DNA of 64,000 nucleotides from assembly GCA_037893245.1 (NCBI GenBank), contig JBAIAA010001121.1, positions 124,001 through 188,000 of the forward strand. Direction: 5' to 3'. The notes beneath the pieces are model-generated. The model was not told the origin of the DNA. It saw only the letters and a program-made list of their open reading frames with translations, and searched no databases. The DNA is from Crossaster papposus. Taxonomy: Eukaryota > Echinodermata > Asteroidea > Velatida > Solasteridae. The position numbers and the translations under genes are program-made. Positions 3,001 through 63,689 of the stretch are shown here, in pieces; the stretch's first letter is position 1; the number at the start of each line of letters is the position of its first letter.

Positions 3001-6000
3001 AGCTGCATTATCGTTCATCATCTAGCTATTCAGCCGAATTCAATTGAATTGCCAGTTAATTCATACAGAGTGATAGGGTGAACTAGTACCTCGATAATTA
3101 CAGTTATATTTCATTTAATTATGATAGAAAAAAAATATGGGAAATTAATTCCAACGATGAAACACTTTTTCTGTGTGTACACGATGGTTTGACCCAGTTC
3201 GTGCCGGAGGATGTACATGTACATGTAAATACTTGCAAAGTTTGTTTAACCAGTTCGCGCCGGGATTATTTTAACATCACCGAGCCGAGGGGCGGGATTA
3301 TTTTTAACAAAACGCAATCCGAAGTGGGTTCAGGCTGATAGTGCCGGGAAGCACACCCACGCATTTCCGGCCATGCTCGCTGCTGACAATTACATTTCCG
3401 AACTTGAACTTGGTGTATTTATGCGTCATCCGTTTTGAATTTGGGGAAACTTTTGCGTTTATATACGTCATCCGGCGCGAACTGGTTAATGGATGACAGA
3501 TAAACATGTCACAAGCAAGGCTAGAAATATCAGGGTGTGCTATCCACTAATGCCGGCCTGAACCCACCTTGGATCAAGGTTTCTAAAAATGTCAAAATAA
3601 TCCTTGTTACTTGTTAAACAAGTATGTTTAAAATCGGTGGACCCAGATGACCCTTGCTTTTGGCTCGGCATAACGTGTCTGATTTGCTTATTAACAGACG
3701 CAACAGCTAGTCCACAAGCCGCCACCCATTCCCTAGATAATATGATCGTGATTGGCATCATGAGTGTTTACTTGATGATTGTCAACGTCTTGCTGTTGAA
3801 TTTGCTGATCGCCATTTTCAAGTGAGTATTGGGTCCGTGGTAAGTAAGTAGTGGTCCGTGGCAATAGAATTGTTTCTTAAAGACAAAATAAGATCACAAA
3901 TTAATAAGTACTACTGAATTATTCTCCACAAACTTAAGGCCGGTTCATACTCGGCACGAAAGCAAATGCAAACGTGCATTTGTGATGTCACGGCAAATGT
4001 CCACGCTGCAAATTTGCAAAAGTTGAACACATTTCAACTTTGGCAAATGTTGACAGTGAATGCTTCTTGATGTCACAATCAGATCGCATTAACTTTCATG
4101 TGAAGTATAAACTGACCTTTATTCAGTTGGTATGGTCTGACCCCAGTTCAGAATGTAACCTTGAACATACATAGTAAACCTAACCTTTTAGCCGAACTAA
4201 AACTCCAACATTTAGCCTAACCAACTGGACAAAAAAATGGCCGCTTAAAAACCTAATCCACGACGCCTTTAATTGTTTGTTTGTTTTGATTTCTTCCCGT
4301 CAGTAACACGTTCACGCGTGTTCACGACAACGCCAGCGAGATTTGGAAGTTCCAACGATATCGACTGATCATGGAGTACAGTGAGAAACCATTCCTGCCG
4401 CCACCGTTTACAGTCATCATTCACGTGACCATGGTCATCAAGCGCATCATGTTCTCGTGCTGTGGGCGCGCCTGCGAAACACCAGAGATGGGTAGGTTAC
4501 CAAAGAGACTAATTATCGAGGACCACTTTAATTTATCCTAAAAGTAACCAAATTATTATCCAGAAACGTTTACTAACATTTAAAGATCGTACTGGGACCG
4601 CCCAATGAAATGATTCTGCCTTGCTTGCTGTCATTGAGAACTGAAAAACAATCAAGAAATTTAGGTGATTTTCAACGATCAGTCAATTGGCTGATTTTTG
4701 GAATAAAGAATGGTATCGATGAAATCGTGTTTTAAGATCATAATTATGTGCGTGTTTTTCACCGTTTTCTTTAAATGTTTAATATTGCTGTTGGCCGGGC
4801 GCGATCGGTGGATCTGCGCTATCATTTAATACACTTTACAAAAACAATTTGTACAAAATATTGTAGGTGCATTGAACCTACTTTATACGTATGGGCCCAA
4901 TACACGTTTGTTTGTTCTTTTAAATGATTTTAAGTTCAAGTTCACAATCAAATTTCAGAGGAACTTTTGGACGAACCTTCCATGCAACTCCTGTATAACT
5001 TTGAGGAAGAGTGCACCGAGAACTACTTGAGACAGAAGGCACTTGAAAAACAGCTGTCGGTGAATGGAACAATACATAGGATATCAGAAAGGTAGGCAAC
5101 TTGGTACCCCACACCGGCACAATATTTTTTAAAATATTTTATAAAAACACTTCCGCTATACTATGGGCTCACATTTAAGCACATTGAGTTACATATCAGG
5201 TTCTAGGACTTGATTTTCCCGTAAAAAATCCTCTAAACCACAAATTAGCAATTAGGCTACATAAAAAAAATGAATTGTTTCTCATCAGAACCCTTTTGAA
5301 AAAATGGTCCGTCAGGGCATTTTATATTTTATATTTTATAGAATAAAAATGTCGCCGAATCTTTGAAACCGGTATCTGACTAAACAACTACAGGCGCGCT
5401 GGTTTCGTTCGTGCCTACCGCATATACATACATGTACATACATGTACATGTACATGTTGATGAACCGGGCGTTGGTGGTAAGCGCTGATGTGCATTTAGC
5501 TCTGATATGATAATTTTTGTTGCGACCTGCAAACGTATAGGTTACTACTTCCGTGGCTCAGCTGCGTGGCAGAGCATGTACGCTACCCAGAATGCCGTGC
5601 GTTTTTCGACACAGAAATCTATGAAGCTCGTCAGGTGTTTTCCAGCGCCCAGTTATAGTATGGGCGCCACCGCGGTAGGCGCGCTCGCTTAGTGTGCGGG
5701 GGTGAAAGCGCTAGTTGACAAAAACTTCGTTGGGACATTGCATTCTTTATCTAAATTACAAATTGTTTTCGTTGATTTACTTTCCAAAACTGACTAATGC
5801 ACACATTTCAAATAGAATAAAAGCTTAAATAATGCTGGTAGAAACACAAAAATATAGTTAAGTCGATTTATTTTCCCATCAGTTATTTTGAGCACCCCAG
5901 TTTTTGTTAATGAAAGAGGCACACAGACACCGTTCTCACTACTATACTCGGCTTCTCCGATCTCCTGTCCGCCGTCGATTTAGATTTTTCCGGTTTGCTT

Positions 6001-11437: not shown

Positions 11438-14400
11438 CTGCAAGAAAAACAATAAGTAGAACTCCTTGAAATCAAAACAAACAGCAAGGCTTGAACCAGT
11501 GACCTCAAATTTGCCATTCCGGTGCTCTACCAACTGAGCTATCCCCAGGGATCATGCCCAAAGTCACTATACTAACACACAAATCTGGACGCAAATTCTT
11601 ATCACATTAGCATGCGCATGAAGTTTGACCCGACCTTCACTCGGATGCGACTCGAACCAACAACAAAATTGCTTGCTAGTGCAGATGTCTTCGTCAACTA
11701 ACCACCTTCAAAGAATTGGCTGAACTGTAACATTCAGTGATCTAGTGGTTGATGCATCTAAACTAGTAAAATAGAGGTCACAGGTTCGAGTCCCACCAAT
11801 GCCATTAATATCATCTTACCATGATTGCTTGTAACCTTGATATGAGCGGCTGGAGGAATCATATGCTGCGGTTGACGCTCAATCAGATAGCGATGATGAT
11901 GCTCCTCCGTCAACAGAGGGCGCTTTGCAGGTGGGGTGATAGGCTCGTCGTAGAGGTCGTGTTTCATCGAGTGTTTGGTCAGTCTAGGCTGGAGGAAAGG
12001 TCGTAGGGGCGGATAGTCCCGAACGTCACGCTCGTCATCTGTTGGATGTTCAAGACAAAAAATATCAAATGCGATCGCTTTGACTTGTCTTATGAACACT
12101 AACCCTAACTCCTTTGGGTGATTTTTAACCTTTCTCATCCTTGCAAATCCCAACACCGTGTTCATTAAACTGTGCACTAAACGGCTGGACTCTGCCAATT
12201 CCTTATGTTGAAGTTTGGCTGGATGGTGATTGTTAGGGTTATAATGTACAAACTATGTTAATGTATTCTCCACTTTCTTGACTAACTGAGTTTTGGTAGT
12301 ATTCCTATTTGAGTCTTTTACGGAAGTGAAACAAAACAAGACCAGGCTGGTGTTCCCAAGCTAGGGATGAAAGGAGTCTCAGGGAGACTTTATTTTAAAC
12401 TCTAAAGGTCTTTGGATCTCTGGCTTAGTCTTCAATTTTAGGCTCCCAACGGCGGGAACTCCGTCTACAATCTGATGCCTGTTGTGTTTCAGAAACATTC
12501 AATCGGTTGGTATGAATCTAAAAATTTGAATATTTCTATAAGTCAGAGGCAAAGCCGAAGCCTAAGACAAAGCAAAGGTTTTGAAAACCCCATGACTCAG
12601 TCAGTCAGTAAGGATGCGTCCGAATCTCTTATCTATGGCTATTGCCTAGGTGTTCGCCATTACAACAGTGTGAGCAGGCTGACAATAGACATAGCCAGAG
12701 CTCTGGAAACTAGTTTCGAAAACGGCCTCAGTCACAGAATAACAACAGGCTCCAGCCCAAACCCTCACCGTATTCTGGCGAGTCCCTGACGTTGGTTGGA
12801 ATGGCTGACGGATGGGGTATCATGGTGGGAAGGGTGGGTGAGTGGGGGGGCAGACCAAAGCCCATGGCATTGGTGGTGTAGACCTGCCTACGACCCTCAC
12901 GTCGATTGCCATCAATTGCGGCCTGCAGCTCCGATGGGGTACTCAACTGACGCTTCTCGCACTCATAGGGGTACAGGTACTTCATGTACCTGTGAAAACA
13001 AATGTCATCAACGTCAAACTCCCTAGGGTGTGTGGACTGGAAAATCATATTGAAATGGAAGGACTCAGGACTGTTAGGGTTACAACTGTTCTTGTAGTCT
13101 AGCTGGTTCCTTGACTTCCTTCAGACAAAACAGAGTAATCTATAGTCATCGGGGAATAATCGGGTTAGGAAACCAGACTGCTTGGCCTGAATCCAATCAC
13201 GGATACATGTGCAACAGTATTGCAAATAAAATATAGACTAACTAAATAAATTGGGGTGGATGGAAATTGATACCAAATTCAACTTTTCTTGATAACCACA
13301 CCACATGCTGTGATTCCACAGGATGCTAGAGACTGTTATTCACTTAGTCAAGTCAAACAAATCATAATAATTCAGTAGTTTTTTGTTTTTTTGTTTGTAA
13401 ATGGTTTACTACATTGTACCTTTAAAGTTTTATTTCATTGCATTTGCATTGAACCGTGAAATGTAATCACTGAGGCACAGCTAGTGAAATTAGTCTCCTT
13501 TCAAGTTTGTAGTACCAGGTACCGGTACATGTAGTTACGCTTCAGAGGCCTTACATAGAGAACAATAGAAGACTGTTTTTGTTCCTGTCTGTTGAACTCA
13601 CATCAGGGGGCTGAAATGACTCTTCTATTTACTACCGGCATAGGACGGAGATACAACAGACGCACTGTTTGCATGCATTCCCTACATAAATGTACCGGTA
13701 CATGGTGGTATTTCTTTTAACCAGTTAGCGCCAGAGGACGTATATACACGCAGAGTTTTTCCGAGATTCAAAGCGAACGCATAAACACGCCATGAGCAAG
13801 GCCGGAAATGTCTGTCAGCAGCGAGCAAGGCCGGAAACGCCATGGGTGTGCTTCCCGGTACCTTGGCCTGACCCCGCCTCGGATCGCTTTTCGTTAAAAA
13901 TAATCTCGTGCCTCGGCTCGGTGAATGTTACAAAAATCCCAGCGCAAACTGGTTAATGAGAGGGGGAAGAGGTATGCACATTTCGATAAGGCTTTTTAAA
14001 AGGGGTGTCAAATGGGGTTATAAACGCCCCCCTCCCCCACACATTTTTTTCCACCGGTTCCAGATTATGGGATTTAGTACTAGTAACCAACTTTACAATT
14101 CACCAAGTACAGTAACTTCTCGAACAATAAAAACAAATTCACCTCAACAATCTTAATACAACCTTAGTACGTTCCTTGGCCCTTGCAAATAAGGAATCAC
14201 TACCTATGCCTTGCTTTCCAATGATTCTACTTAAGATTCAAGATTAATTTAAGAACCTACCGGAAGTTCGTCGGTATTGTATGGTCCTTAAAAATACCAT
14301 GACAATAATAGCGAGCCAGCAACTTCCAAAACTTGAATTTTAGGGAAAGGTTTGTTTGACGGGTTTCTGTATTACCCATAAATTCACACCCCCAGGGATA

Positions 14401-17400: not shown

Positions 17401-20400
17401 ATTCAGGTAAATAAATATTGTTTTCAATTTAATACATGTATATACAAAATTACAATTAAAAAAAAAAAAAAACCAATTTTAAATGCGATTCTTTTTTCAC
17501 AACTCAGTTTTGCAGCCGTTTTAATTAATTGTGGTATATTGGTGTATTAATTAATTGCCAGATTTCTCTCTTCGTTACTATTTACGACAGTCTTAACAAC
17601 ACCTCAAAGTAGCTAAAAGCTAAATATACTGGAATGCAACATTTGTAGGTTGAATATTTTAGTTTTTTTAGATTTGAAGGTTTGCATGGTGCAATGGCAA
17701 TAAGATGAGTAGTTGACGGGGTTCTGAAAAGAAACAGTATGCTCTTTAAACAGTATGCCTATTGTCAAGAGAATGAGCTACATGTAGGGCAGAGCAAACT
17801 ACTATCTCAAGTTTGTTTTTTGTTTGTTTATTAAACTCAATGTTGAAAATACCTCCGGACCATTGCAAGAAATGGTACCTGACTGTACTGGATTTGCAAC
17901 TCTCCAAAACATGCTCAACTTTATATTTTATGACAACGCTTATTTGCACCAGTACTGGTATGCTTATCTTGCAAGAACATACTAGGCTCAACGGCCACCT
18001 AATCAATCTTTAATTTGCTACCAAATCCATAAAGAAAACTCAACTCATAGTATCATTGAATGGGCAGGAAATCCAACTCTATCGTCACCATTCAACTCAT
18101 AGATAGAGCAGCCCATCAGCGCCAGATTGAACACAGAGATCAGATCTTAGCGTCAAGACGTCTGACTCCTGCTAAATTGGAGTGCCAATTACAAATTGCT
18201 TAGAGGATTTTTGTTTTTGGGTTGGTGAGCCACTCCCTATGTGTATCTCAGGTGTTTCCTGATAGCTGTCAAAGCCGTTAACGTTTCAAAGTTGTGGGAA
18301 TCGAGGCTTAGCAATATGAATCAATAAACAAACAATGTAAGTGCAAGACAGCCAAACTGTCTGGGCATCCAGATGGATTTTTTGCTGGTGGGGAAGGGTT
18401 TTATTGGATTCAGGTTATGTGTAAGAAAACTAAGGTATGGAGTTAGGGTTTATTTATGTTGCACACCATTGGATAGCTCTTGTTCTGCAGTATACAGAAC
18501 AGTATCTCAATTCTTAAAAAGTAAAACTTTAAAGCTTAATTTTAATGACAGCCACATGTAGGTCACATTTTATAAATCTTTACAGACGTTTTATAACAGA
18601 ATCAATGCATTACTGTAACTGCTCATTTATCACAAACAAACGTAAATTGGCAATTCTTGAGTTTAAATTTGCCACAATGATTAACATAAGTTTTGTCAGA
18701 GAAAAGAAATACTTTTCTATTTAAAAGCCATGGCATGTATGGAATAATATATTTAAACACACCACGCCCTTTTAATTCAATTTCTGAGATAATCTAGGCC
18801 AGACGCCATCAGAAACATACATGTAGGTCGGTTGTTTTGAGATATTAAAGAAAACAAACCAGGCAAACAAATGCTGCCGTAAACAAGATATGGTTCACTA
18901 AAATCCTAAGAACATAACGAAAAAAGCCCCCAGTGGCCTTATTATGACCAAGAAACTTAGAAAATTGCCCGGCCCCTCCCAAGCAATTATTGTTCCCTTT
19001 TTAATCGAGGTAATCCCATAAGGCCAAAGTGGCTTCATAATGAATGGCAGGTGGGTTGTGGCCTGGCCCAGGGGATCACCTATGATCTGATGTGTGGCGT
19101 TGATAGGGAAATTGTTAAATTATGCGCTAATTCCATGAGTTTAGCAAACAGGAAGTAGGGACCCTACGCAGTACAGTGATCAACTCTCTAGCTTGAAGGG
19201 AGGGAAGGGGGGTTGTGGAGTGAGGGAGGGGGGCGCTGGGAGCTGGCGCTGATTTTTGATTGGAAGGAAGGAATCTGGAAGTGCCATACGCAACAGGTTT
19301 CTGCCCAGCAATTATTAACCATTTACGGCGCGTTGCAGCCTCTCAGTAATCAGACAACTTCCACCGTGTTTGTGATTTACCTGCTTTAGTTTGCTGTTGA
19401 TGAATTGTTGCCGGTAGTTTTGTTTTTTGTTTTTTTGTCTGGTTTTAGCACGTGTACTCGTAAACAAAGTTGCTTCAAGGTTAATAAATTATCACGTACT
19501 TAGGAGCTAAGCGAATTTGGCAGCTGAATTTAAAGGAGTGTTTTGTTGTCAAATGATTTAACCCCGCCCAAATATTTAATGTACCTTGGAAAAAATGTAC
19601 ATCTGCATCACATAAAACCACGCAAATGTAATTACTACTGAGAATCAATTTCTTTACACTTTTATTAACATCTTTATCAAAACATAAAGGGCATTTTGTC
19701 CAACTAGTACAATAAGATACTAATTGTAACAAGTGTTTTGTAAGACTTGTCATGTTTTTTGGTGTACCATTTTCTGTTTGTATTTAACTTATTTTCAAAT
19801 CAGAGTTGCAACGGTTGTAACAGAGACGCACACTTTTAATGCACATTAAAAAAAAGTAAATTTTGTATTCCAATATAAGGTACTTCGCAATCTGATGACT
19901 TTAAAAGGTTTAAAGAATTTAACAACTTATGTTTTGCTAAAAGTATACATGGGATGTAGTCTACCCAAGCAGTGAAATGAATGGTTGTATTATTACATGA
20001 CGTTAACAAATTCTCGATCTGTCTCAATTTGAGTTGATCCTGTATAGGTTTCTGAAATTGTGTTTGTCCTTGTTAACTGAATGCCTTTTTCTGCAAGGTA
20101 CACGTGTACCTTTTCACTTTGATGACTTTAACCAGTTCGCGCCGGATGACGAATATAAACGCAAAAATTTCCCCAAATTCAAAACGGATGACGAATATAT
20201 ACGCCAAGTTCAAGTTCGGAAATATATGTCAGCAGCGCGCAAGGCCGGAAATGCGTGGGTGTGCTACCCAGCACTATAGGCCTGAACACGCTTCGGATCG
20301 AGTTTCGTTAAAAATAATCCCGCCCGTCGGCTCGGCGATGTTAAAATAATCCCGGCGCGAACTGGTTAAAAGGTTAAACAAACCTCAGAAAGAATTAAAC

Positions 20401-23400: not shown

Positions 23401-26400
23401 ACGGATTGGTAATGTTTTTTTGTGCTTCCCTTTCATAACAACATGGGAACCCCCAGGCCAAACTTCTAGGAATGAACACACAGGAATACCTTGCCAGGAA
23501 AAAAACAAATGCAGATGGATTAAGCCATTTTAACTCGGCATCCCTTTTTAGAATTGGGACAAAGTATCGGGAACGGTATTGATAAGTTTTTCCTTCTACA
23601 AACAAACGGGCAAAGGCAATTAATTGCACTACAATCCCATTGTCATCCCTCCTCAGATCTTAGATCTCATCAAAATTAAGCTTCTGGTGTGCATCGGTTT
23701 TATTTCAATTGTACCTTTTTGTTTGTCCATCTTTTAATTCCACATTGCCAACTCCACTAAATCCACTCACAAAACAAATTGGCTCCCTCGTTATCTTTAA
23801 TATTCACCATCCCTGAGGGTTGGAGGGTGGGGGAGGGGGAAGGGTGGGGGGAGGGGAAGGGTGGGGGGAGGGGGGGTGGGGGGAGGGGGGTGGGGGAGGG
23901 GGAAAGGATGGGGAGAGGGGAGGAAGGGTGGGGGGAAGGGTGGGGGGGGGGGTGGGTGGGGGGGGGGGGGGTGGGTGGGGGAGGGGGGGGGGAGGGGGGG
24001 AGGAGGGGGGGGGGGGGGAGGGTGGGGGGGGGGGGGGGGGGGGGGGGGGGTAAGCAAGCAGTCACTAAATATACCCTTCTGTCCCCCTCCCTGAGTAACA
24101 AGTGTGGCAAAGCAAACTAGGACCCCCCCCCCCTTTTTGATTAAAGTCATTAGGCTCAATGGTAGGATGTATACACTATTGCAGATTTGAAAAAATGTTA
24201 CTACCAAATTATTAAGAAATTTCATACTTATTTGATACTAAATAATGATTGTATGCATCCAGTAAAAAGATTGTGCTCGATAATTGTTTTATAAAATTAA
24301 ATCGCGATCGTAAAAAAAACAAAAAAAACAAGAACAACTGCCCTACGCCAGTTGAAAACGAACGATGTTTTTCTTGCTTTTTTTCTCGGCATCCATGATT
24401 GTAGAACTTTGGACAGGTCATAAAATAATATAAAATAAAATACCACACCCCCCAAAAAAAAAAAAAAAAACGATTTAAAACAAATTGATGATGTATTTCC
24501 TTTAAGACTAGATCTTCAATAATAAAAGAACCTATCACACTGACTGACATTACCAGTAAGTAGAGTATTTTACTCAATCAAAAGATCGAATTAGAATGAA
24601 ATTAGGATCCAGTGGTAGGACCAGGGGGGGGCGGAGGGGGGGGCCCAACAAAGTGCGCCACCAACGTTGAAATGTATCTCATTCGTTTTTCCACGCTCAT
24701 GAGCCACACATCTCACACAGTAATTATACGTATAGATCGCTACCGCGAAGCGCACCGTTGAAACACGTACAAATTTGCTCCGCGCTCGCTCTCCGAATTC
24801 AGTGATTCATATAACGTCAGCAAAGCCAGGTACACAGGCACGATCTACACAAATTTGTTTTGGGGCGATGTCATTTTCTGCCATTTTCGTTCGAAAACAA
24901 CACGATAAAACGCAAGGCAGATTTTTTAAAAAATTCAGTATATCACTGCTACATCCTTTTTAAACGTATCCATGGAAAAAAGTGAGTGGGTTCGAAGCAC
25001 GATTTTTCACAATTTATCGATTATTATTGCCCTTTTTAGGGGAGGTATTTGTCAACGTCGTTTTAGTATTTGTGCACAATCTCTACGTGCATCAACGGTA
25101 CGTCAACGCTTAATTTTTTCGACTGCTTTTTTTTATTTTCAATACAATTTTTGTCATTGGATGATAAAAATTAAGGTAAATAAAAACCTTTTACAACTAC
25201 AAAAGACAAGATGTTAAGATTGGATGCCAAAAACTCTTTATTTTTTCGCGTGAGAAAATTGTTCCCACCTATTTTGAGAATGGACGGTACGTCAGCGTTG
25301 CGCAATCACAGTCTCGAAGGCCCCCTGGAGTGGGGTGTGAACCTGTGACCTCCGGATTGCCATTGCGATGCTCACGAGAACATTCATTGGTAAGAATTGG
25401 AACAATTAGATGCAAAACTTTCGCTGCACAAATTACAGATTTTTACACAGCAGTGTCTTGCAACACTGGATATTTATTCCTAATCAACTTCAATGCTACA
25501 AAGAAAACACTTCCACCAAGCCCTACCTCAGCTGATTGGAGATTAGGACTAAAACAAAAGCAAACAAACATCCATTAAGCCTGGTACTAATTACCATAGT
25601 CTAGTCCCAACCTAATCTAATTATTGCAAATTGCATCCAGAAAACAGGTGTCACAATCTGTCTGGCTCACTGCCAAATTCAGATTAATTTGTCAATCTAC
25701 ATCCAAAGCATGTCAGAGTTAGCACGTTGACACGTTCATTTCCTATCATCAAACCATCCCCCCCCCAAAAAAATATATATATATATATATTTTTAAAAAT
25801 GAGATCAATGTGTGTGTAGACGCACAAAAGTAATAATTCAGGGTTTTGTATAGCAAGTCTGTGATATTTTCTGTTGTGGGATAACTATTTGATGGCATCT
25901 CTGCAGGAAATCCCCACTTGCACCTGCCTCTGAATAAATAGGCCTAACAATTAAATAAATAAATCTACAAAAGAAAATACTCAAATTTTAGAGTATCTTC
26001 ATGTTTGCACCCTATTACAATACTATTAACTATACAATGTACAGTACAGTCAAATATTAGCACACCAAGGGCCAATTTCAATGGGGCCACGTATGCAAGC
26101 ACAAAATTTGCTTAGCAAACAAATACTTTCTTGGCAAAACAGGGTTACAAACATTTTAGTTTATGTTTGTTTTTGACTGGTATTCAGCTGTTTTTGTTTT
26201 GTGATGTTTATTGTTTTGTACTGGTATTCAGCTGGGTTTTTTTTGCTTTGAATGTCAAGCATATGGAGTTTTGGCCGATAACCTGTTTTTACTGAGCAAG
26301 ACTTTTTTATTGCTAAGCAAATTTTTGAGCTTTCATGTTTTATGAAATTGGCCCCAGCAATTTACACTCACAATAAGCCAGTTTGGTATTCTAACTGCGC

Positions 26401-29400
26401 ATGTGCACAACAAGATTCCAGAATGGGATAAACGCGGCAGATGCATACAAGGCTATGGGAGACGTGGTAACCAAATCTGCATTCTGTGCATTTTTTCGTG
26501 AAATCAAAAAAAGATGAATGGAAACTTTTGTTTAAACAGAAGTTTTGACACATGACAAGGCCCCTTAACCAGTTCGCGCCGGATGACGTATATAAACGCA
26601 AAAATTTCCCAAAATTCAAAACGGATGACGCATAAACACGACAAGTTCAAGTTCGGAAATGTATGTCAGCAGCGAGCAAGGCCGGAAATGCGTGGGTGTG
26701 CTTCCCGGCACTATCAGCCTGAACACGCTTCAGATCGAGTTTCGTTAAAAAAAATCCCGCCCGTCGGCTCGGCGTTGTTAAAATAATCCCGGCGCGAACT
26801 GGTTAAAACACTCCGCATGTATGGTACATATATGTAACCAACTTAAATTATATACATGTACCTGTAATTCTTCTCTAAGATAAAAACAGAAGGTTTTGTT
26901 TGAAATTTTCAAACCGAAACCAGGCTACATGGAAAAAAAAATGTTAAGCTAAGAAAAAATTTCAGTTGACACCTTAAAGCTACGACGGCATAATCACCTC
27001 TGTCTAACAATTTACCAAGAGAAATGTCATCGTGCTGCCAACAAATATATAAAAAATACAATTGAAACTCACCTCGTTTCTGCATGAAGGAGAAAAGCTC
27101 GTCCAAAAATGCCTTCCGTTTACGGTCGTTAGATAATTCATAAAGCTGTGGCCAAAAGAAAAGGGGGAAAATAGGAATGATTCAAGCTGATCGACAGATA
27201 GTGGTTTAGAAGGCATTGGCAGGTACCGGTACTTAGCCTAGGACAACAAATTTGTTTGAAATTGGAATTTTCCAAACTTGTGTTTTATTTCTTTAAAGGT
27301 AGGATACACCATTTGCAGAAATCAAAAAAATTTACTGCCGAATTATTAGGAAATGTTTTACTTATTTGAAACTTGAAAGTAAATAATGATTCTAGGCATC
27401 CAGCACAATGATTGCGCTAAATATCCTGTAATTATTCTGAAAAAAACACAAATTACATAAGAATAACTGCTTGACGCCAGTTGAAAACAAACGCTGTTTT
27501 CGGGCTTTTCTCGGCATCAATGACAGTGAAACTTCGGACAGCTCAGTTAAACGGTATTTACTATAAAATACAACCCTCCAAATCTACTCATTTATGATAA
27601 TTCAAGCAATTACCAATGGTGTATCCTACCTTTAAAATGTATTGTTTTCAGCTTAGAAGGGAAAACAAAGTTTAGCATTGTTAGGGGCAACTTGAAATGA
27701 AGAGCTTAAAAGTAAGTGCGGATTGCCGTGGTCTCAGGGTCTTAATTTGTGGTCTGCGGGTGATTCTGCGGGTTGTGGGTTTGAGTCCAGCCTGGGGTTA
27801 TGGTGCGCGTGCCCTTGGGCAAGAAAATGAAATAAGGGAATACAAATCAAGCTGGCACTAACTCCACTTTAGCCACACTCCAATTTATTCCATCAAAACA
27901 AATTATGGCAGCCTCCCACGCAGGAAATCAAAAATCGGATTATTTCATAACAAAGGATGTGCACAATCTATGAGGCGCCAAAATCTCCTTGATAATCATA
28001 TTTTCATCGGGCGGAACTGGCCAATAAGACTGGGGGAAAAGTAATTAAGGTGGAAAATCTCCCCCTGATGCAGGAAGTGCTGATGCAAGAAAACAAAAGG
28101 TGTTTCTTGCTGATAAAAAAATCAAGAGGAAAAAATATAAGTCTGGAGGAAGTCTGAGGCAAAACGGCCGTGAGAACTGATTGAATGGCTCAAACTGAAG
28201 ACTGAAAAATACTCTCGGGATGTTAAACATTGGGCAAACATGCTCAGTTTGTTTCTAGTTTTATGAGTGATCTGAGCCCCTTCCAACTTGGCTACAGCTC
28301 AGAGTAAACACTCAATGGCACTCATGTGTATCATGATAACTGGATGAAGCCATAGCTGTAGTCAGGTTAACTAGCCCAGCACAGCCATTAGAGAAACTGC
28401 TAAAAATACTGCCAAAATAAAAATAGGTTGTATCTCTCGTAAAGTACACCAAGCTGAAACTTCAACATTATATATTTGGAACATCTTTCTTTGGAATTGG
28501 AGTGGTTGTAATTGGAAACGAATGAAATGTCTAACTCCACTGCGATCCCCAATGCACAGGTAGCTAAGGATTTCCGTGAATTCACCAAGATTCATCAATA
28601 TTTTTTCTTGGGATAAACACGGCAGATAAATATACACAATGTATAGGGACGTGGTAACCGAATCTCGACATTTTGTGCGATTTTTGCAGGCAATCGAAAA
28701 AGACGATGGAAACTTTTGTTCGAACAAAAGTTTGGACACACAAGACACTCGAAAACAATGCGCTGTCCAAATGGTTTATTTGAAAATGTTACTTCAGAAC
28801 ACCACAAACTCTAAATTTGCTGGTACCCGCTATGCTTTAGCACGTATGCTATGAATTGTTTACAAATGTACATTGTATCTCGAAGGAAAAATCATCAAAT
28901 CTTGATGTGCACACGCACAGTTGCAATACCGAACCAGTTGGTTTATTGCCTCAATAGTTTGGATTTCACACGTGTGTACAAATACAGTTCAGTATAATAC
29001 ATACTTAACTTGTACAGTAGTTGTAAACCCTTGCTGTGATGTATTTTGTGCCCCAACTCGACCGCCAAAAGAAAACATTAGGCCCTCTTAACTTATTTGA
29101 AAAAACCGAACAAAAAACCTAGAGACTATTATTTTACTTAATCAATCATCGTTCATCCACACTCTGAAGCTACCTGTACAATACATGTACTTTATAAATA
29201 GGCTAGGCCCACCACACTTTCTCTTTCAGTACACAATTATCAAAGTCGTATCTGTCATTATTTTTGTGATGTTCCACAGATCGCTGCACCCTGATAAAAG
29301 ACACCATTGAATAAGGGCCTACTACATGAATGTAATCCTACTTGTATTGATCCCCGCTTAGCAATGCTTAGCTCTTTTAAGTGCTCCTTTGTGGCAATTT

Positions 29401-39539: not shown

Positions 39540-39700
39540 GTCGTTATTTTTAACGAAACTCGATCCGAAGCGGGTTTAGGCCGATAGTGCCGGGAAGCAC
39601 ACCCACACATTTCCGGCCTTGCTCGCAGCCGACAGACATTTCCGAACTTGAACTTGGCGTGTTTATGCGTTCTCCGTTTTGAAATTTTTTGGGGGAAAAT
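39539..39700. mobile_element. Family A MITE, truncated at a poly-G junction
   Basis: TTATTTTTAACGAAACTCGATCC through GCCGGGAAGCACACCC and ACTTGAACTTGGCGTGTTTATGCG match family A; both termini are missing. The poly-G run replaces the left end. Confidence 0.75.
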
Positions 39701-45200: not shown

Positions 45201-48200
45201 TTGCTGGCCGCACCCGGATGAGGTTGACAGATGGAATAATTTCATGCATGCAATCACCAATCCAGTCTTTTTCTTGTTAAAGCAAAGCTCATGACATAGA
45301 AGGGTTTGCTCTCTTTCAGGGGGAGCCTACTACATGATCTCGCGAAGTCTCGGGCCTGAATTTGGTGGCTCTATCGGCTTGATTTTCTCCGTCGCTAATG
45401 CCGTGGCTGTTGCCATGTACGTTGTTGGCTTTGCAGAAGTCGTACGGGACCTATTAGTGGTAAGTTTAAAATTGTCATTTTGGGTGATCGCAGAGGATCA
45501 TTTTAGTGTCCACTTGGCAACTTTCTGACACTGACTACTATAACAAAAGTGTTGCTAGGTTGCATAGTGCATCTATTAAAAAAAATATCGTGATTTTTTC
45601 ACATTTTATTTCTAAAACAGGAGAGTAACTTGAAGATCGTTGATCCCGAGAACGACGTTCGGATCATTGGTGAAGCGACACTCGTACTTCTACTAGGGAT
45701 TACGATGATCGGAATGGCGTGGGAAGCGAGGGTGAGTCATCAGCCATTTCTTCTGACTCGCTTATGACTTGCATATGACTCGTGTATGACTTGCATCTGA
45801 CTCGTGTATGACTTGCATCTGACTCGTGTATGACTTGCATCTGACTCGTGTATGACTTGCATCTGACTTGCATCTGACTTGCATCTGACTCGCTTATGAC
45901 TCGCTTATGACTCGCTTATGACTCGCTTATGACTCGCTTATGACTCGCTTATGACTCGCTTATGACTCGCTTTGACTCGCTTATGACTCGATTATGACTC
46001 GATTATGACTCATGACTCACTTATGACTCGCTTATGACTCGCTTATGACTCGCTTATGACTCGCTTATGACTCGCTTATGACTTCTTTATGACTTGCTCA
46101 TGACTCGTTCATCACTCGTTTATTACTTGCTTCCGATAGCGTTGTGATTCACAAGCTATTAAGATGATCTAATATACAAGCCGTTTTTCTTAGTTGTTGA
46201 CCTATCACTGTTTGCTAGTTAGCCACACCCCTTAGAAAACTAAGCATGAAGGTGTGATACGCGATTACGTGAATGATGCAGTATCCTATAATGGGGCATA
46301 AATTGCATACACGCTCTCCCACTGTACGCAGGCAGACTTTCTGGCATTCACTGTTCGAGGAAAGGAGACAAATTGAATGTTTCCCAACTGTTTCCCAACA
46401 AGTTCCCCAACAAGTTCCCCAACAAGTTCCCCACTGACATGTTTAGGGAAAGTAGGTCTTGCGTAAATATGAATAAAGTAATAATGTTGCCACTATAACA
46501 TCTTGTCGTTTGTTTTGTTTTGTAGGCCCAAATGTTTTTATTGCTGCTTCTGGTTATCGCTATCTGCAACATGATGGTTGGAACTTTCCTCCCAGCCCCA
46601 GAGCATGAGAGGGCACAAGGCTTTCTGAACTACAAAAGTAAACATAATCATTTCCCACCAAATTCTAACGATACTAAAACTGTAATGATACATTATACTG
46701 AAAGATTCCTAGAAAGCGACATTATCACTGAAGCCTGCAAGCCTGTAAACAAAACTGCAAAGAGAAGACATTGAGAAGAAATTACGGTTTTAGAGGTGGG
46801 AGGAAAAGCTAGGGCGGGAATCGAACCTGGGCCATAAGGGTGGAATGAAAGGAAAGAATTGCTGTCCCAACCTGACGCCCAGACTTGGATAAGGTTCAAA
46901 CGGTTCAAGACCCCAGTTAACCCTATGATTGCACCTGAAAGTGAATTACTCTCCAAAAGTAAATTACTCTCAAAAAGTTAATCTACTCACAACCTTTTTA
47001 AACTGAAACTCTCAACAATTTTGTTACTACTTTTCCCCAATTTTACAGGTGAGCTTTTCTTTCAAAACGTTGGTCCTGATTATCGGAACAATGAAGGATT
47101 TTTCTCCATATTTTCCATCTTCTTTCCGGCTGCAACTGGTATTCTGGCCGGTGCCAATATTTCAGGGGACCTCAAAGTAAGTTTTGTTTTGTTTTTGTTT
47201 TTGTTTTTGTTTTGCCCAATCTTTGACTTCTAGCTTTAAACTCTTGCCGCTTGCAAAGTTTTTCTTAATGGCTCGCAAAACCAATTTCATAAAGTCAGTT
47301 TTAGAGCTAAAAATAAATACCTCAAAAGCTTGATTGAAGCTATTGGCGAAATGGCTTTCCTCAAGATTTTCTTTCCCTGAAATATTTGTGTTTAACTGGC
47401 CTTTTAACCATAACTTGAATACAAACAATTGATCCTTCTGGTAATAAACGAATAAAGTGCGCGTATACACGTAAAGTTTGCATAATGCAAAAACAAATGA
47501 CGGATAAACCCATCACGAGCGAGACCGCAAATTTCTGTCAGCGACTGACTCGCAGCGAGCGAGGCTGGAAATATCAGGGTATGTCATCCACAGATGCCGG
47601 CTTGAACCCGTCTGAGATCGGGGTTGGTTGAAAAGAATCCCATGCCTGAGCCTGTTCAATGTCCAAATAATCCTTGCGCGAACTGGTTTAAAGCTATATT
47701 TTCACAAAAACAATTTGTAATGTATAATTAAATTTGTTGTGATTTTTATTTATTTTTGCTAGGATGCACAGATGGCTATTCCGAAGGGGACCCTGATTGC
47801 CATAGTGTCGACCTCAATTAGTTACGCTGGATTGGCTGTCGTTCTGGGGTCGTGTATGACCAGGGAAGCCACTGGTGACATTGGAGACCTCATCGCGGGA
47901 AACTTTACATCGGCTTGCGAGGAAGTCGATGCTGATTGCAAATACGGACTGCTGAATAGTTTCTCCGTAAGCTGACAAAGTCTGTTTTTCTTGAGAACAG
48001 TTTCTTACTGACATTTGTCTGTAAGATACTAGTAAGTGACTAACTATGACTTGAAAACTGTTAGAATTTAGCCCACAGTGAAAGCTTCTAGAGGATTACC
48101 ACTAACCCCTCAGGCCTTTTTGCTAGGAACCATTCTCAATCCTGCAATTAAAATTGACAATCGACTGGTTTAGTCCCTCCTGCAAAATCAACATGTCCGA

Positions 48201-51200: not shown

Positions 51201-54200
51201 ATATAAATTGCCCTGTGGAGACCTTTTCAATCCCATTGCCCCCATTGTGTTTAGGTCTCTACAGGGTACCACCTTTATGAACTAAGTACCCATAGTGAGT
51301 TGTTGATTTCCATCTTTGCTTACTAGAGATCAACTGGGGTTCTTCTAACCAGGCGTTCATCTACAAACAAGCGTTGACCAACACACTGAAGCTGAATCAA
51401 ATACCAGCACACGTCAAAACGTTCAGGTGAGACAATAGCCGCGCTTTCATTCCACGTACGTCCCCATTTACTCAACGTTTAGGTGAGACAATAGCCGTGC
51501 TGTCATTCCACGTACGTCCCCATTTACTCAACGCTTAGGTGAGGCAATAGCTGCGCTGTCATTCCACGTACGTCCCCATTTACTCAACGCTTAGGTGAGG
51601 CAATAGCTGCGCTGTCATTCCACGTACGTCCCCATTTACTCAACGCTTAGGTGAGGCAATAGCTGCGCTGTCATTCCACGTACGTCCCCATTTACTCAAC
51701 GTTTAGGTGAGACAATAGCCGTGCTGTCATTCCACGTACGTCCCCATTTACTCAACGCTTAGGTGAGGCAATAGCTGCGCTGTCATTCCACGTACGTCCC
51801 CATTTACTCAACGCTTAGGTGAGGCAATAGCTGCGCTGTCATTCCACGTACGTCCCCATTTACTCAACGTTTAGGTGAGACAATAGCCGCGCTTTCATTC
51901 CACGTACGTCCCCATTTACTCAACGTTTAGGTGAGACAATAGCCGCGCTTTCATTCCACGTACGTCCCCATTTACTCAACGTTTAGGTGAGGCAATAGCT
52001 GCGCTGTCATTCCACGTACGTCCCCATTTACTCAACGTTTAGGTGAGACAATAGCCGCGCTTTCATTCCACGTACGTCCCCATTTACTCAACGTTTAGGT
52101 GAGACAATAGCCGCGCTTTCATTCCACGTACGTCCCCATTTACTCAACGTTTAGGTGAGGCAATAGCTGCGCTGTCATTCCACGTACGTCCCCATTTACT
52201 CAACGTTTAGGTGAGACAATAGCCGCGCTTTCATTCCACGTACGTCCCCATTTACTCAACGTTTAGGTGAGGCAATAGCTGCGCTGTCATTCCACGTACG
52301 TCCCCATTTACTCAACGTTTAGGTGAGACAATAGCCGCGCTTTCATTCCACGTACGTCCCCATTTACTCAACGCTTAGGTGAGACAATAGCCGTGCTTTC
52401 ATTCCACGTACGTCCCCATTTACTCAACGTTTAGGTGAGACAATAGCCGCGCTTTCATTCCAAGTACGTCCCCATTTACTCAACGTTTTTGCATCTTCCG
52501 TTTTGAATCTGGGGAAAACTTTGCGTGTATATACGTCCTCCGGCGCGAACCGGTTAACCAAAAGGCTGATTTTGATAAGTTTGTTGTATTATTGTATTTT
52601 CCTTGTACAGACCACAGATTATTGCATTGACTGGTCTTCCTGAGTGTAGGCCGGCACTGGTTCACTTTGTCTCTCATATCACTAAGAGCACAAGCCTTCT
52701 CATATGCGGGGCTGTGATGATCGTAAGTGGTCTGCTACACGGAAAGAGTGTGTCTTTGTGTGTCTTTGTGAAGCATAATGATTTGTGGTTCAGGAGCCAA
52801 TTTCAAGGATATACTAAGCACAAACATTTGCTGAGCATGACAAAGTTCGGCATATGACAGAATAGGGTTTTTCAAATAGAAATTTGTTAAAATTCCATAA
52901 TTGACCTTTCACTGAAAATGTTTGTTTATACTTTTAACGACTTTACGCTAATTTTGTGCTGCCAGATTGCATTCAATGTTTTCATCCAAAAACAGTTTAT
53001 TTTTTTTAATTTGAAAGTATTTTTGTTAAATGAATGCATACTGAGCTTTAAGGAGAGATATTTTGTCCCGTTGTTTTGCACAGGGTGAGCAGAGCTCTAA
53101 TTTGACTGCTCTTTTGACTGACTCCCACGAGAAATGGCTGGATTTTCAGAAGATTAAGGCATTCCCTGCCATGGTAGCCAGCCCTACGCTGAGAACTGGT
53201 GCACAGGCACTCATGCAGGTAAGGGCCTTGACAAAATTCTTTCAAAGTTGCTCAAATGTAAAAACAAGATTATCCTTGTTCACGTTTTGCAATGTTAAAA
53301 GTGGTCTGATTTTGCTTGACCCAGACAAATGCATTCAATTTGACCCTTCCTTTTTTTTCTTCTCGTCTAGATTGGCGGTCTGGGTAAGATCAAGCCCAAC
53401 ACAATCTTCATGGGTTTCCTGGGAAAATGGAAGACGGAAAAACCGCAGTATGTCAACGATTACGTGGGTATCATTCAGTAAGTAACCAGTCTAAAACAAT
53501 GTTGACCTCGACCTTCGGTTAGTTAGGTTCCCAGACCGAAACAATTCTGACTATTTCTGATGAACGATTAGGCCCGGTAGCCGCCAATGTCACATGACCA
53601 AAACATCGCTGTAATGCTTTCACATATTTGTCAACTACAGGGGTGCATACTTTGCCCCAAAATCATCATGAGCTTTATTGCCCTCATTTGATACCGACCA
53701 ACCCTCCAAGCTGACGACCTGATATGGCAAATTAGCTTCAGCCAGTTATTTCCAATCTTTCTTGCAGCGATGCGTTTGACCTCAACTTGGGCGTTGGTAT
53801 ACTGCGTATCAAGGAATCGTTTGATGTGTCTAGTGCCCTGAATACCCCTGGCTTCACTGACTATGTTGAAGAAGGTAAGCTGTGATTTATAGACTGGCGA
53901 CCTGACCATAGGCCCGAGATGTTGACTAAATCTTTTATTTCTAAATTACCTATTTCAAATTCTATCAAACAAATTAATAGTTCCACCTATAGTATACTGT
54001 TCAGTGCCCCGCCCCCCCCCCCCTTTTTTTTAAACTTAAATTGCCAACTCCCCCCCCCCCCCCAAGCCCTGATGCACATACAACTCACAACAAGCCTTTA
54101 GCACTCGCACTTGCACGAACTGTCAGTGTCAACTATTTGATTGACATAAACCTTGATGTAGATCTGATAGCAACGCACGTAAGCTATGAAACTAATGGAT

Positions 54201-57200
54201 TCTTAGCCGAGATTTCTGCACTATTTTTTTTTGTTATGTAATATAAAAACATAAATTGTTAGTATCTTACAAAAGTACCATAAAATTCCAAAATAAAATT
54301 TTCCACTAAGAATGCATTGTTATTGTAGCTTACGTACGTTGCTATCGGCCCACATCATTGTTTATTTAAACAAAATTGTCATTACGGTGAGTTTGTGCTT
54401 GCGCATATTGTTACATAATTTGTGGGGACCGTTAACGCACACAATCTTGACGAGAGATCCCTAGCCTCCTAGATTACTTAATAGTATTGTTCCTTTTATT
54501 TGGCTAACTAAGTTCTTCATCAGCCTGATCATGGACAATCCAGATTTCAGATCGGTAAGCTAGCTTCAAACGTGTCAATGATAGAGTTTACGAGTGACTT
54601 AATCGTTTCTCTATCGATTTATAAACCCGATTTGGTGAAACAAGGCAAAGAAAATGTTTTTATCAAGTGAATCATTGCTCTTTGCTTACTTCGTTGTCAT
54701 GACAATTGATTAGGGAATGTTATAATGACGAAGACAGTGCACTGGTCATCTTGACTAGGGTTGTAGAGGGGTCATAACAAGGTCACGTTAACTCTCTCTG
54801 TAAGTGTCTAGTCGACTGTGTCACCATTTTGTATTTCCAAGTTGTTGTTGTAAAACTTGATTTGTTATATCGTGTGTTTGGATACTGTAATTTGATTGGC
54901 CTAGAACGATCATGTGTCCGAGCTATAATTTTTGTTTATTTTTTGACACGATATAACAGAACAATTGTTTACCGCTGTGATGTTGGATATGACGTTTTGA
55001 ACACCCGTCGGGAAGCATAGCCCCCTCGGCTTGACTCTGGCTGCTATGCGTTCCTTGGGTGTTAAAAGGTCATATCCCACATCACAGCAGCCAACAATTG
55101 TTAAGTATATATGTTTTGTATAAATAGTGCGATGTACTTTTGTCGTAGATTTAGAAAGTTTTTTGAATATGTTAATATTACATGTAAATATGTGTTTACA
55201 TTTGTTTCAGTTGAATTAAAGTTGGTGTTTTTGTTATGCTCCTTTCCCATTCATTGCATGCCTTTGACCAGTTCGTGCCAGGATTATTTTAACATCACCG
55301 AGCCGAGGGGCAGAATTATTTTTAACGAAACACGATCCGAAGCGGGTTCAGGCCGATAGTGCCGGAAAGCACACCCACACATTTCCGGCCTTGCTTGTGC
55401 TGACAGACATTTTCGGCCTTGCTCATGGCGTATTTATGCGTCATCTGTTTTGAATCTGGGGGAAACTATGCGTTTATATACGTCATCCGGCGCGAACTGG
55501 TTAAAACATTTATATCGCGTCATATTATATCACAACAATCAACAATTTTTTTTCCGTAATTCCTTGTATTTGGCGTAAAAATTTACTAGCTGGGAAGATC
55601 CGTTTCATGATGTAAAAGAATTTTTTTCAGCTAAGCTTAACAAACATTTAGAAGTAAAATACCAGTCTGAAGTTTAGTAGACTAGTTTGAACAAAGATAT
55701 TGACGAATTTGGTGAACTGCCAACACAGGGCCGGGTAGCTCAGTTGATTAAGCACCGGAACTGTAATCCAGAAGTCGATGGTTCGAGCATTACTCCAGTC
55801 GATATTTTTGTTCAATTTTTAAAAATACTTTGATTCAGAGCACAACCTCAACTGTTTCCCATATTCCCTTTATATCTCTCTCTCACTTATTTTGTTAACA
55901 GAGAAAGTGCCTGAAATCAAAGTGGAAATGGCGCCCTCTACAATCCCAGAGGAAGTCATCAAGGAGGAAGGGGCGGAGCCAGTAGAACCATCGGCCGCTG
56001 AGTCCACACACCCTCCAATCGAAACAAAGATCAATCTGAGTGACGGCATGGCACTCATCAAAGGACAGCCCATCGATGATGTCATCAAATCTATGCAGAA
56101 ATTTCAGGCCAAGATGCCAAAAGGAAACATTGACGTGTGGTGGCTTCTGGATGATGGAGGTAGGATGAAATGGCATAGTGGGGTCAATAGGAGGAATATT
56201 TGTGGAAATTATGCCTTTGCATGAAATGACAAGCATGAAATTTGGCATACAGTCAGAATATGTCATGAAAAAGATATTTCACTATAGGGTCATCGTAGAT
56301 TTGAGTTCCCTCCGGTTTTTTTTAGAACCACACAACCCACAAAAGAGAATTACCACATGGTGCTACTGCAAATAACTTTAAATAATAATACTTAGAAATA
56401 ATAATATGTTTCTAAGTATCTCCTAGTACATCTGTCTCATGTACACCTCTCTGTCCCCTCTCTCCCCCCCCCCCCCCCCCCCCCCAAGGCCTGACCCTAC
56501 TCATCCCCCACCTCATCTCTATGAAGTCCAACTGGGAGAAATGCAAGCTGCGCGTCTTTGCCACCACGGGCAAGAAGGAGCAAATCGACCGAGAGAAGAT
56601 GAACATGGCCAACATGCTGAGCAAGTTCCGCATCGACTGCTCGGACGTGGAGATCATCCCGGACCTGAACAAGACGCCGAAGGAGGAGAACCTGAGACGG
56701 TTCAAGGAGCTGTCTAAACCCTGGATGCTGGACGAGAAAGCAGGGGAGACCGCCGAGCAGTTTCCTTGGAAGATCACCCAGGATGAAGTCAACACGCTCA
56801 AAGAGAAGGTAGACTCTCTTACGCTAAAGCCCCTCACCCCTCCCTCCAGACAGGACAAACATTTTTAACGCGAGCCATTTGAGCCATTTACATCCTAGCT
56901 TGTAAATACTGGTACTCACACATAAGGAAAATATGGGCCTTTTCGAAACCGTTGCTTCGTCTTCGTCTTTGGCTTAAGGCGATTTTTGAGTTCCCAACTG
57001 CAAGATCCCCAGCCACATTCTGACGCCTGTTTTTCTTCAGAAACATTCACTCGATTGATGTGAACCCCAAAGTTAGACTATTTCAATTTTCTTTCATTTC
57101 TATTTGCTTCTCAGTAATTCGGAATTCGGAGGCGAAGCCAAAGCCAAAGACGAAGCAACGGTTTCGAAAAGCCCCTATGCACTCACTCTTTCTGAATGTA

Positions 57201-62616: not shown

Positions 62617-62867
62617 GGTTAAGTAACTGGCTCTTGTTGCAAGACAAGTACCCCTTCAATGTTTACGAAGGGAGAGTTGAGTGAAGCCACTGGTAGGATT
62701 GACATTCGAATTCAAACACATTGCTCAAAAGAAACTAGATAGCAAAGTTTCTAACATAAGTGCAACTGCCAAAAGGGTATTTCAAAATTACAGGCTAGGT
62801 CGAAGAAAACTATTATTACACGCGTGGATAAAAATGGTTTGTTTATCACGTTTCGTACTTTAGCTTG

Positions 62868-63689
62868 ATGTGGGTCCTGTACGTGACCTCGACGTACGCA
62901 ATGGGTCAATCGGACGCATTAGACATCTGCGCCATCGAAGCCACACCATGGAGCCGCTTTGAGGGAACCCTCGTGCACGTGTCAGTGGGGCAAGCGGGAA
63001 AGTGGGGCGTGGACGCCAACAGACTCGTCTTCTACGGAGACCCGGCTTACGGGGATCCTGACTCCTGCGAACCGTGGGAACTGATCTTAGGCAGTCTCAA
63101 GCAGCTGGACGTAGGTAACGACGTCGTCTGGGGGGTCGCTGGTAATGACAACATTTACTATCGCCATGAGATCACCCCAAGCAACCCAAAGGGTACCCAG
63201 TGGGTTCAAGTGTCAGGCCGTCTGAAACACGTCAGCGTCAGTCAGAGGGGCCATGTGTGGGGCGTGAACGCCGACGACAACATTTACCACAGAGTCGGGG
63301 CGAGTAATTGCAACAGGGCCGGGGACAGTTGGCGGCAGATTTCGGGCGGACTGAAGCAGATCTCGGTGGGTAAATCGGGCGTGTGGGGTGTGAACTCGGG
63401 CGACAATATCTACTACAGGGACGGCACACACGGCGATCCCAAGTCGGATCCAGACGGTAGCGGTTGGACCCAAGTTCCTGGAGGTCTCAAGTACATCAGC
63501 TCTGCCGATATGGTGTTCGGGGTGAACTCTAACTACGCTATCTACTACCGGGCCGGTGTGTCGGCTGCCGCCCCGACCGGCAGCGACTGGCGGAACATTC
63601 CCGGGGGCCTCAAGCAGATTGAGACCCTTTCGTGCGCCGTTTGGGGTGTCAACTCCAACAACGAAATTTACAAAAAGGACCTTGACTAA
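62868..63689 (+). CDS. Tectonin-repeat lectin (fish-egg-lectin / tachylectin-like)
   Basis: 273 residues from ATG 62868, an uninterrupted exon ending in TAA. Five tectonin repeats of about 40-45 residues, at roughly 70-100, 112-142, 155-185, 200-229 and 241-269, follow a partial one at 28-58. Each has the pattern W-x-x-(I/V)-x-G-x-L-K-x-(I/V)-S-V...VWGV(N/A)xxDNIYYR. This five-bladed beta-propeller family includes fish egg lectins, which bind LPS and sugars and are secreted. The N-terminal MWVLYVTSTYAMGQS is hydrophobic but short for a signal peptide. TACTTTAG/C just upstream could be an acceptor, so a leader exon may be missing. Four cysteines (about 21, 67, 148, 256) could form disulfides. 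G+C-richer than all neighbours. Confidence 0.9.
   Translation: MWVLYVTSTYAMGQSDALDICAIEATPWSRFEGTLVHVSVGQAGKWGVDANRLVFYGDPAYGDPDSCEPWELILGSLKQLDVGNDVVWGVAGNDNIYYRHEITPSNPKGTQWVQVSGRLKHVSVSQRGHVWGVNADDNIYHRVGASNCNRAGDSWRQISGGLKQISVGKSGVWGVNSGDNIYYRDGTHGDPKSDPDGSGWTQVPGGLKYISSADMVFGVNSNYAIYYRAGVSAAAPTGSDWRNIPGGLKQIETLSCAVWGVNSNNEIYKKDLD

Follow-up and report, generated by a model that had tools for sequence, protein, structure and literature searches.

Tandem copies of a splice donor at the head of an NKCC intron in Crossaster papposus, and similar arrays at other exon ends

Several described systems come close to the one reported here. In the dual-specific array of polyubiquitin UBC, to which similar repeat-borne introns of human can be added, the AG|GT unit boundary matches both donor and acceptor, and the repeat has expanded with the splice site inside the unit; in UBC the repeat is coding and holds both ends of the intron, whose length is therefore a whole number of units (Duan et al., 2024, PMC10809524). 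In the model of Rogers, as set out for potato RdRp, splice signals are copied when a segment that spans an exon-intron boundary, or lies close to one, is duplicated in tandem. The segment duplicated in potato runs over the other boundary, from intron 1 into exon 2, and the same paper cites an example from fission yeast in which a 24-bp segment is present in several tandem copies (PMC4974935). Recursive ratchet points juxtapose an acceptor-like AG with a donor GT, lie mostly in long introns and come with an RS-exon (PMC8605326). When two equal donors compete, the length of the flanking introns decides between them in the cases covered by the excerpted text of PMC9225289. In seabream myostatin a strong acceptor is predicted 65 bp inside intron 1 in one repeat allele (PMC3045353). 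A search of the open-access literature turned up no account of an intron headed by tandem copies of its own donor.

The locus described here, in an NKCC gene, resembles each of these systems in part. As in UBC, AGGT is found at the unit boundary, in 19 of 19 units; unlike UBC, the 5' end of the intron alone lies in the array, the acceptor is outside it, each unit consists of 9 nt of exon and 47 nt of intron, and use of the boundaries as acceptors is putative. A duplication across an exon-intron boundary is shared with the Rogers model, but no new intron has come from duplicated exonic AGGT: the unit is intronic over 47 of its 56 nt, the normal acceptor is outside the array and an existing intron has acquired copies of its own donor. 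Unlike the ratchet points, the 18 copies are evenly spaced within a 1.2-kb intron and score poorly as acceptors. The experiments with competing donors used two sites, whereas here there are 19 natural donors and the repeat itself sets the intron length. The array has the homogeneous 56-bp tandem units, the edge variants and the short direct repeat at both edges of an intronic minisatellite, but it begins inside a coding exon and contains a functional splice site.

The exon 14 junction and its 56-bp array

The window is the whole 64,000-nt stretch of DNA that was analysed (contig C1120:124001-188000, part of a 1.02-Gb assembly of 1841 contigs), and positions given without a contig refer to it. 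The NKCC gene occupies about 41.7 to 58.0 kb of the window on the + strand. Its exons were set by eye at GT/AG boundaries and named from the matches of single exons to Pfam SLC12 and AA_permease, some of these matches being sub-cut-off, together with PDB NKCC1 matches over the exon 14/15 junction. Exons 3-22 join into a single open frame of 899 residues and a stop, and the joined exon 14/15 peptide aligns with PDB NKCC1 chains without a gap over the junction (best E 3.4e-14). Because of this protein alignment and the open frame the boundary of exon 14 is taken to be right. The initial annotation had allowed that exon 14 might end elsewhere in orthologues, and the conserved NKCC junction speaks against such a misplaced exon end. 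The features of the junction are as follows.

51327..51426, + strand: exon 14 of NKCC (SLC12 cation-chloride cotransporter), 100 nt; its last 9 nt (51418-51426) are within array unit 1
51418..52481, + strand: array of 19 gapless 56-bp units, with YAG|GTGAGR at unit positions 7-15 of each, 7 variable columns and 7 unit types
51427..51432, + strand: true 5' splice site of intron 14, CAG|GTGAGA; if unspliced here, an in-frame TGA follows at 51428-51430
51427..52610, + strand: intron 14, 1184 nt at present, 176 nt if it held one unit
51483..52440, + strand: 18 decoy donors, TAG|GTGAGA or TAG|GTGAGG, at positions 51427+56n, n=1-18
52482..52488, + strand: AACGTTT, an incomplete 20th copy; it is the 3' member of a direct repeat with the AACGTT of the 5' edge
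52486..52557, + strand: right-end fragment of a ~243-bp terminal-inverted-repeat (MITE-like) element, its left side cut off by the array
52611..52722, + strand: exon 15 of NKCC, acceptor TTTTCCTTGTACAG|ACCACAG

The presence of 19 tandem 56-bp units carrying a donor, as first proposed, is borne out by TRF, which gave a single 56-bp array (51418-52488, 19.1 copies, 0% indels), and by phasing from 51418, where 49 of the 56 unit columns are invariant over the 19 full units, followed by AACGTTT and unique sequence. The head-to-tail units (56 bp x 19.1, no indels) are inside the range of about 10-100 bp of a minisatellite. The unit types are arranged in the order ABCCCBCCDDEDDEDEDFG. Units differ pairwise by a mean of 2.5 of 56 positions, and neighbouring units are no more alike than in shuffled orders (2.33 vs 2.51 differences; 35% of shuffles as low). 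Two particulars of the initial annotation have to be corrected. The array was said to start at the exon/intron boundary; it starts 9 nt inside exon 14 (AACGTTCAG) and ends at 52488, unit 1 being the last 9 nt of the exon together with the true donor. It was also said to add 19 decoys to the true donor, making 20 sites; the 19 copies include the true donor, hence there are 18 decoys and 19 donors. The locus is present once in the one assembly searched.

Other features were noted in the same window. In NKCC intron 6 an 11-bp array of 35 copies (45750-46132, CTTATGACTCG) starts 18 nt past the exon 6 donor (45732). It contains ATGACTC 18 times, complementary to GAGTCAT of that donor (GTGAGTCAT), and the donor stretch with two array units gives a duplex of -15.8 kcal/mol. 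From this model the intron 6 array could mask the exon 6 donor, although the complementarity may be due to chance. A tectonin-domain protein has an exon at 62832-63689 (Pfam Tectonin, E 1.2e-71), and 23825-24050 is a G-rich, homopolymer-like run of 226 nt with a poly-G match of 72%.

Origin of the array

Whole-assembly searches with the full array and with two units, in which very common words were skipped, matched the NKCC locus alone. The duplicated segment comprises 9 nt of exon and 47 nt of intron with AACGTT at both edges, and the same hexamer stands at both edges of the array (51418 and 52482), 56n bp apart. The idea that the array arose by tandem duplication of the exon/intron junction is supported, as the unit is found at the NKCC locus alone and unit 1 is the junction itself. 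The best explanation is a private minisatellite, locally born, that spans a splice junction of an otherwise intact NKCC gene. The seed was probably the short direct repeat AACGTT, one copy being exonic and the other at the edge of the truncated MITE-like element, and slippage or unequal exchange between these two repeats would be the simplest reading. A C to T difference at -3 sets the exon copy apart from every other unit; the change took place in the array at an early stage or else came later, in the exon.

The 3' edge of the array enters the last 72 bp of the MITE-like element, which is 87.5% identical to the copies in the window. This element is abundant (5083 first-look candidates across the assembly; 40 of them scored):

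window 3245-3489, 13715-13956, 20127-20370, 26565-26807, 55263-55505 and 39544-39698, and loci L002-L031: ~243-bp MITE-like element with 18-bp inverted ends (TTAACCAGTTCGCGCCGG...)

The adjoining fragment is what would commend the view that the unit is itself a mobile or introner-like element, or that the array is an assembly artefact, its likeness to the exon end being coincidental. We consider this very improbable. A MITE origin of the unit was rejected because its best local alignment to the MITE consensus scored 14, below all 500 shuffles (mean 21.5), and introner-like elements are expected as similar copies in many genes, whereas this unit, with very common words skipped in the search, was not found elsewhere in the assembly. 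Coincidence does not fit the exon's 9 bases, of which 8 are shared with 12 of the 18 other units and 7 with the remaining 6 of 18; this is more than chance would give, because among these bases the donor consensus dictates AG alone. Other junction-spanning arrays exist, with unrelated units (see below), and since similar arrays recur at other junctions an assembly artefact becomes less likely.

Strength, frame and choice of the donors

Every decoy had been held to be at least as good as the true donor, which overstates the case: the U1 duplex is -11.1 kcal/mol for the true donor and -9.5 or -10.0 for the decoys, and a matrix trained on the gene gives 7.96 against 6.89 or 6.50, so that the decoys are slightly weaker by both measures. 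They are still credible donors by these models, because 14 of the 20 other donors of the NKCC gene form U1 duplexes weaker than -9.5. In three settings the 9-nt donor was predicted to be unpaired with a probability of 0.0037, 0.00079 and 0.0011 at the true site and of 0.0048, 0.00039 and 0.00025 for the median decoy; the true donor thus came out as more accessible than the median decoy in two of the three, at values that were low throughout. The fold z for 1, 2, 3 and 6 units was -0.10, -0.85, 0.67 and 1.14. Predicted accessibility and fold z lend no support to RNA structure hiding the decoys, though they do not cleanly exclude it.

Exon 14 ends in ACG TTC AG, so that retaining the first intron base turns the final AG into AGG, which TGA follows directly. 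Translation of decoy-to-exon 15 products for n=1, 2, 3 and 18 met this in-frame TGA immediately, and the frame is identical for all decoys. From the sequence, any decoy product would stop at the start of the C-terminal domain. The earlier argument that decoy use truncates the protein stands as regards the stop, which comes at once with any decoy; its other part, the point that 56 is not divisible by 3, has no bearing, since the TGA is in frame for any decoy. Decoy use would give an exon 14 of 156, 212, 268 nt and so on.

The decoys might in principle bind U1, or be used more often as copy number rises, and so form a dial on NKCC output (a sponge, a noise source or a poison exon). There are 18 of them, with U1 duplexes stronger than those of most other donors of the gene, and the TGA puts every decoy product out of use, both of which would suit such a role. 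It is nevertheless an unlikely one: no folding signal accompanies the array, the z values above staying between -0.85 and 1.14, and such arrays are also present in genes with no relation to NKCC (LRP2-like, PSMD6-like, ABCB-like, Piwi-like and others), so that the cause would seem to lie in mutation and not in anything specific to NKCC.

It is also conceivable that the array is a chain of 56-nt GT...AG units whose boundaries act as acceptor and donor at once, in which case a decoy transcript could be repaired and the intron removed stepwise. Every internal boundary reads TTAG|GTGAG, a juxtaposed AG|GT. The accessible part of PMC10809524 has dual-specific AGGT sites used in human, with the tandem array in UBC, and that of PMC8605326 describes recursive splice sites as juxtaposed acceptor/donor pairs. 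This possibility is doubtful for several reasons. As acceptors the unit boundaries score 2.2-2.6, lower than 18 of the 20 scored real acceptors of the gene, and 83-92 of its 822 other AGs score as high. A length of 56 nt is close to the minimal intron size, the 31-nt units of the LRP2-like array described below are too short for an intron, and the length of intron 14 is no multiple of 56.

The reading that we find probable is a minisatellite from a duplicated junction, seeded by AACGTT, in which the first donor is used by exon definition and the decoys are mostly silent. The exon-attached copy would retain the coding end and the true donor, and added copies would accumulate in the intron as look-alike donors. 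With introns 13 and 14 at 696 and 1184 nt, exon 14 belongs to the long-intron class. Recognition across the exon, together with these long flanking introns, should let the donor nearest the upstream 3' splice site win, and decoys of n>=3, which would extend the exon beyond 250 nt, may be disfavoured further by size. Decoy products, with their immediate stop, should be degraded, and the array may accordingly be close to neutral. Near-exclusive use of 51427 is predicted by analogy with studied donor pairs. In the accessible part of PMC9225289 the switch from intron to exon definition is placed at 200-250 nt of intron, and five minigenes, each with a pair of identical donors and with introns of 365 nt on either side, spliced exclusively at the upstream donor. 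For strength-matched human events the same text has long introns going with the upstream donor and a short downstream intron with the downstream donor; in the full data set, without strength matching, the downstream donor is favoured, in about 60% (PMC9225289). The initial suggestion that exon definition or proximity governs donor choice now appears, by analogy with these minigenes and from the other exon-anchored arrays described below, to be the best-supported mechanism.

It is tempting to speculate, as a tentative possibility, that growth of intron 14 from 176 to 1184 nt itself brought exon definition and thereby silenced the decoys. A donor copy in a short intron would at first be dangerous, as intron definition would favour the copy nearest the downstream acceptor. 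Each added unit would lengthen the intron, and past about 250 nt exon definition would let the original donor win whatever the number of decoys, so that arrays surviving the first two or three copies could expand freely. Intron 14 would measure 176, 232 and 288 nt at 1, 2 and 3 units, and the intron with the LRP2-like array, 2426 nt at present, about 161 nt with one unit. This possibility is raised because both introns would begin in the short class.

Donor-bearing arrays at other exon ends

The assembly was searched for three donor-like motifs 20-55 nt apart. AGGTRAG gave at least 6 arrays among the matches listed, 5 of which were fetched; CAGGTAAG gave at least 10 among the matches listed (up to contig C398), all fetched at the 5' edge; and the list for CAGGTGAG was complete, with 12 places, of which one had been seen already and 11 were fetched, two of these (C197 and C344) being the same array. 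In total 25 distinct donor-bearing arrays besides that of NKCC were inspected. An exon end was called by eye where an AG and an open frame were seen together with AG|GTRAG that lay within the first unit or began it. By this measure 13 of the 25 arrays start at an exon end and 11 do not, and in one (C355) the array fills the fetched flank. Homology supports 8 of the 13:

C3: LRP2-like; Pfam Ldl_recept_b 4.4e-6; joined exons match LRP2 residues 3351-3463, domain E 2.3e-15; 31-nt units
C354: PSMD6, 3.6e-15
C326: ABCB, 3.7e-6
C204: Piwi, 1.9e-8
C196: protein kinase, 5.5e-11
C41: EGF_CA, 2.8e-6
C181: HEAT; Pfam 3.8e-4, sub-cut-off; PDB 'Helicase-like protein' 1.4e-4, ranked after designed repeat proteins
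C662: TPR_2, 8.6e-10

The exon frames at C31, C87, C398, C349 and C495 gave no significant family match. Some array loci lie in genes that we take to be BTAF1-like and DAPK-like. On sequence grounds at least eight other genes appear to share a junction-spanning donor array.

Decoys could be scored in 7 of the 13 arrays. In four of them (C31, C204, C181, C349) the true donor and the nearest of the listed decoys are equally strong, and a decoy is stronger in the other three, by 0.1 (C3), 0.9 (C41) and 1.5 to 4.0 kcal/mol (C196); among the scored arrays, NKCC and these seven, NKCC alone has the stronger true donor. Donor strength therefore cannot be the general rule, the true donor being equal or weaker in all seven, and so position, rather than strength, is the factor common to the arrays. 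The unit at C181 carries up to about 50 nt of the exon, and with such units the local exon context is copied too. Within the fetched stretch an in-frame stop follows the first donor in 7 of the 13 arrays and is absent from 6, so that a later donor could serve in those six. Units of C31 (51 nt) and C204 (45 nt) keep the frame, and later donors may be usable in both. At C204:626500-627000 (L083) the Piwi-like exon end is present three times in frame, 45 bp each, with no stop and with three equal CAG|GTAAGC donors, and from this sequence proteins with 0, 15 or 30 extra residues could be made.

Junction-spanning donor arrays are a real, modest but general phenomenon. The choice of the spliceosome among equal donors has been studied mostly with two sites in minigenes, and this genome provides natural test cases in genes that are ordinary in other respects, with about 3 to 74 donors of equal or nearly equal strength, where at some loci the decoys match the true site in strength and carry up to about 50 nt of the exon's end. 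Such loci would let donor choice be measured against number, spacing and intron length, and they bear on whether minisatellites can expand at splice junctions harmlessly and on whether expression is tuned by copy number.

The recurrence has to be seen against the abundance of arrays in general. Arrays with a period of at least 10 and at least 5 copies were present at 6 of 29 MITE-selected loci (94 kb in total), and two lie in the 64-kb window. In the assembly searches donor-motif arrays were no commoner than those of the reversed motif (1479 vs 3316, 159 vs 159 and 78 vs 473), and there is thus no sign that arrays are born preferentially at junctions. A large fraction of the CAGGTRAG words in any genome must be real donors; if arrays can form at any place and are tolerated at junctions, much of the 13 of 25 is therefore to be expected. 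Among 12 control arrays of GAATGGAC, a weak control as several belong to one repeat family, none of the 8 with a visible edge shows an exon ending in unit 1 (by eye), and 4 fill the flank; three open frames from these controls gave one sub-threshold Pfam match (GCV_T, E 0.0015). A codon-usage score trained on one gene, tried for exon calling, scored simple repeats highest and did not separate the two array sets. The search for acceptor-spanning arrays (TTTGCAGG) gave a list dominated by a dispersed repeat.

Three of the 11 arrays that do not start at an exon end deserve mention. Those on C201 and C394 (L082, L105) begin 24 and about 75 nt past exon-like donors, the donors themselves being excluded, and arrays in this assembly are often placed just inside introns. 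On C749:469060-469500 (L108) a 15-bp array with CAGGTGAGCGCTGAG begins exactly at the stop codon of a transmembrane-like frame. The 24-bp donor-bearing array found twice with the same flank, at C197:1415030-1415470 (L100) and C344:148690-149130 (L101), is either a retained second haplotype or a duplication, and the pair is usable for a comparison of copy number.
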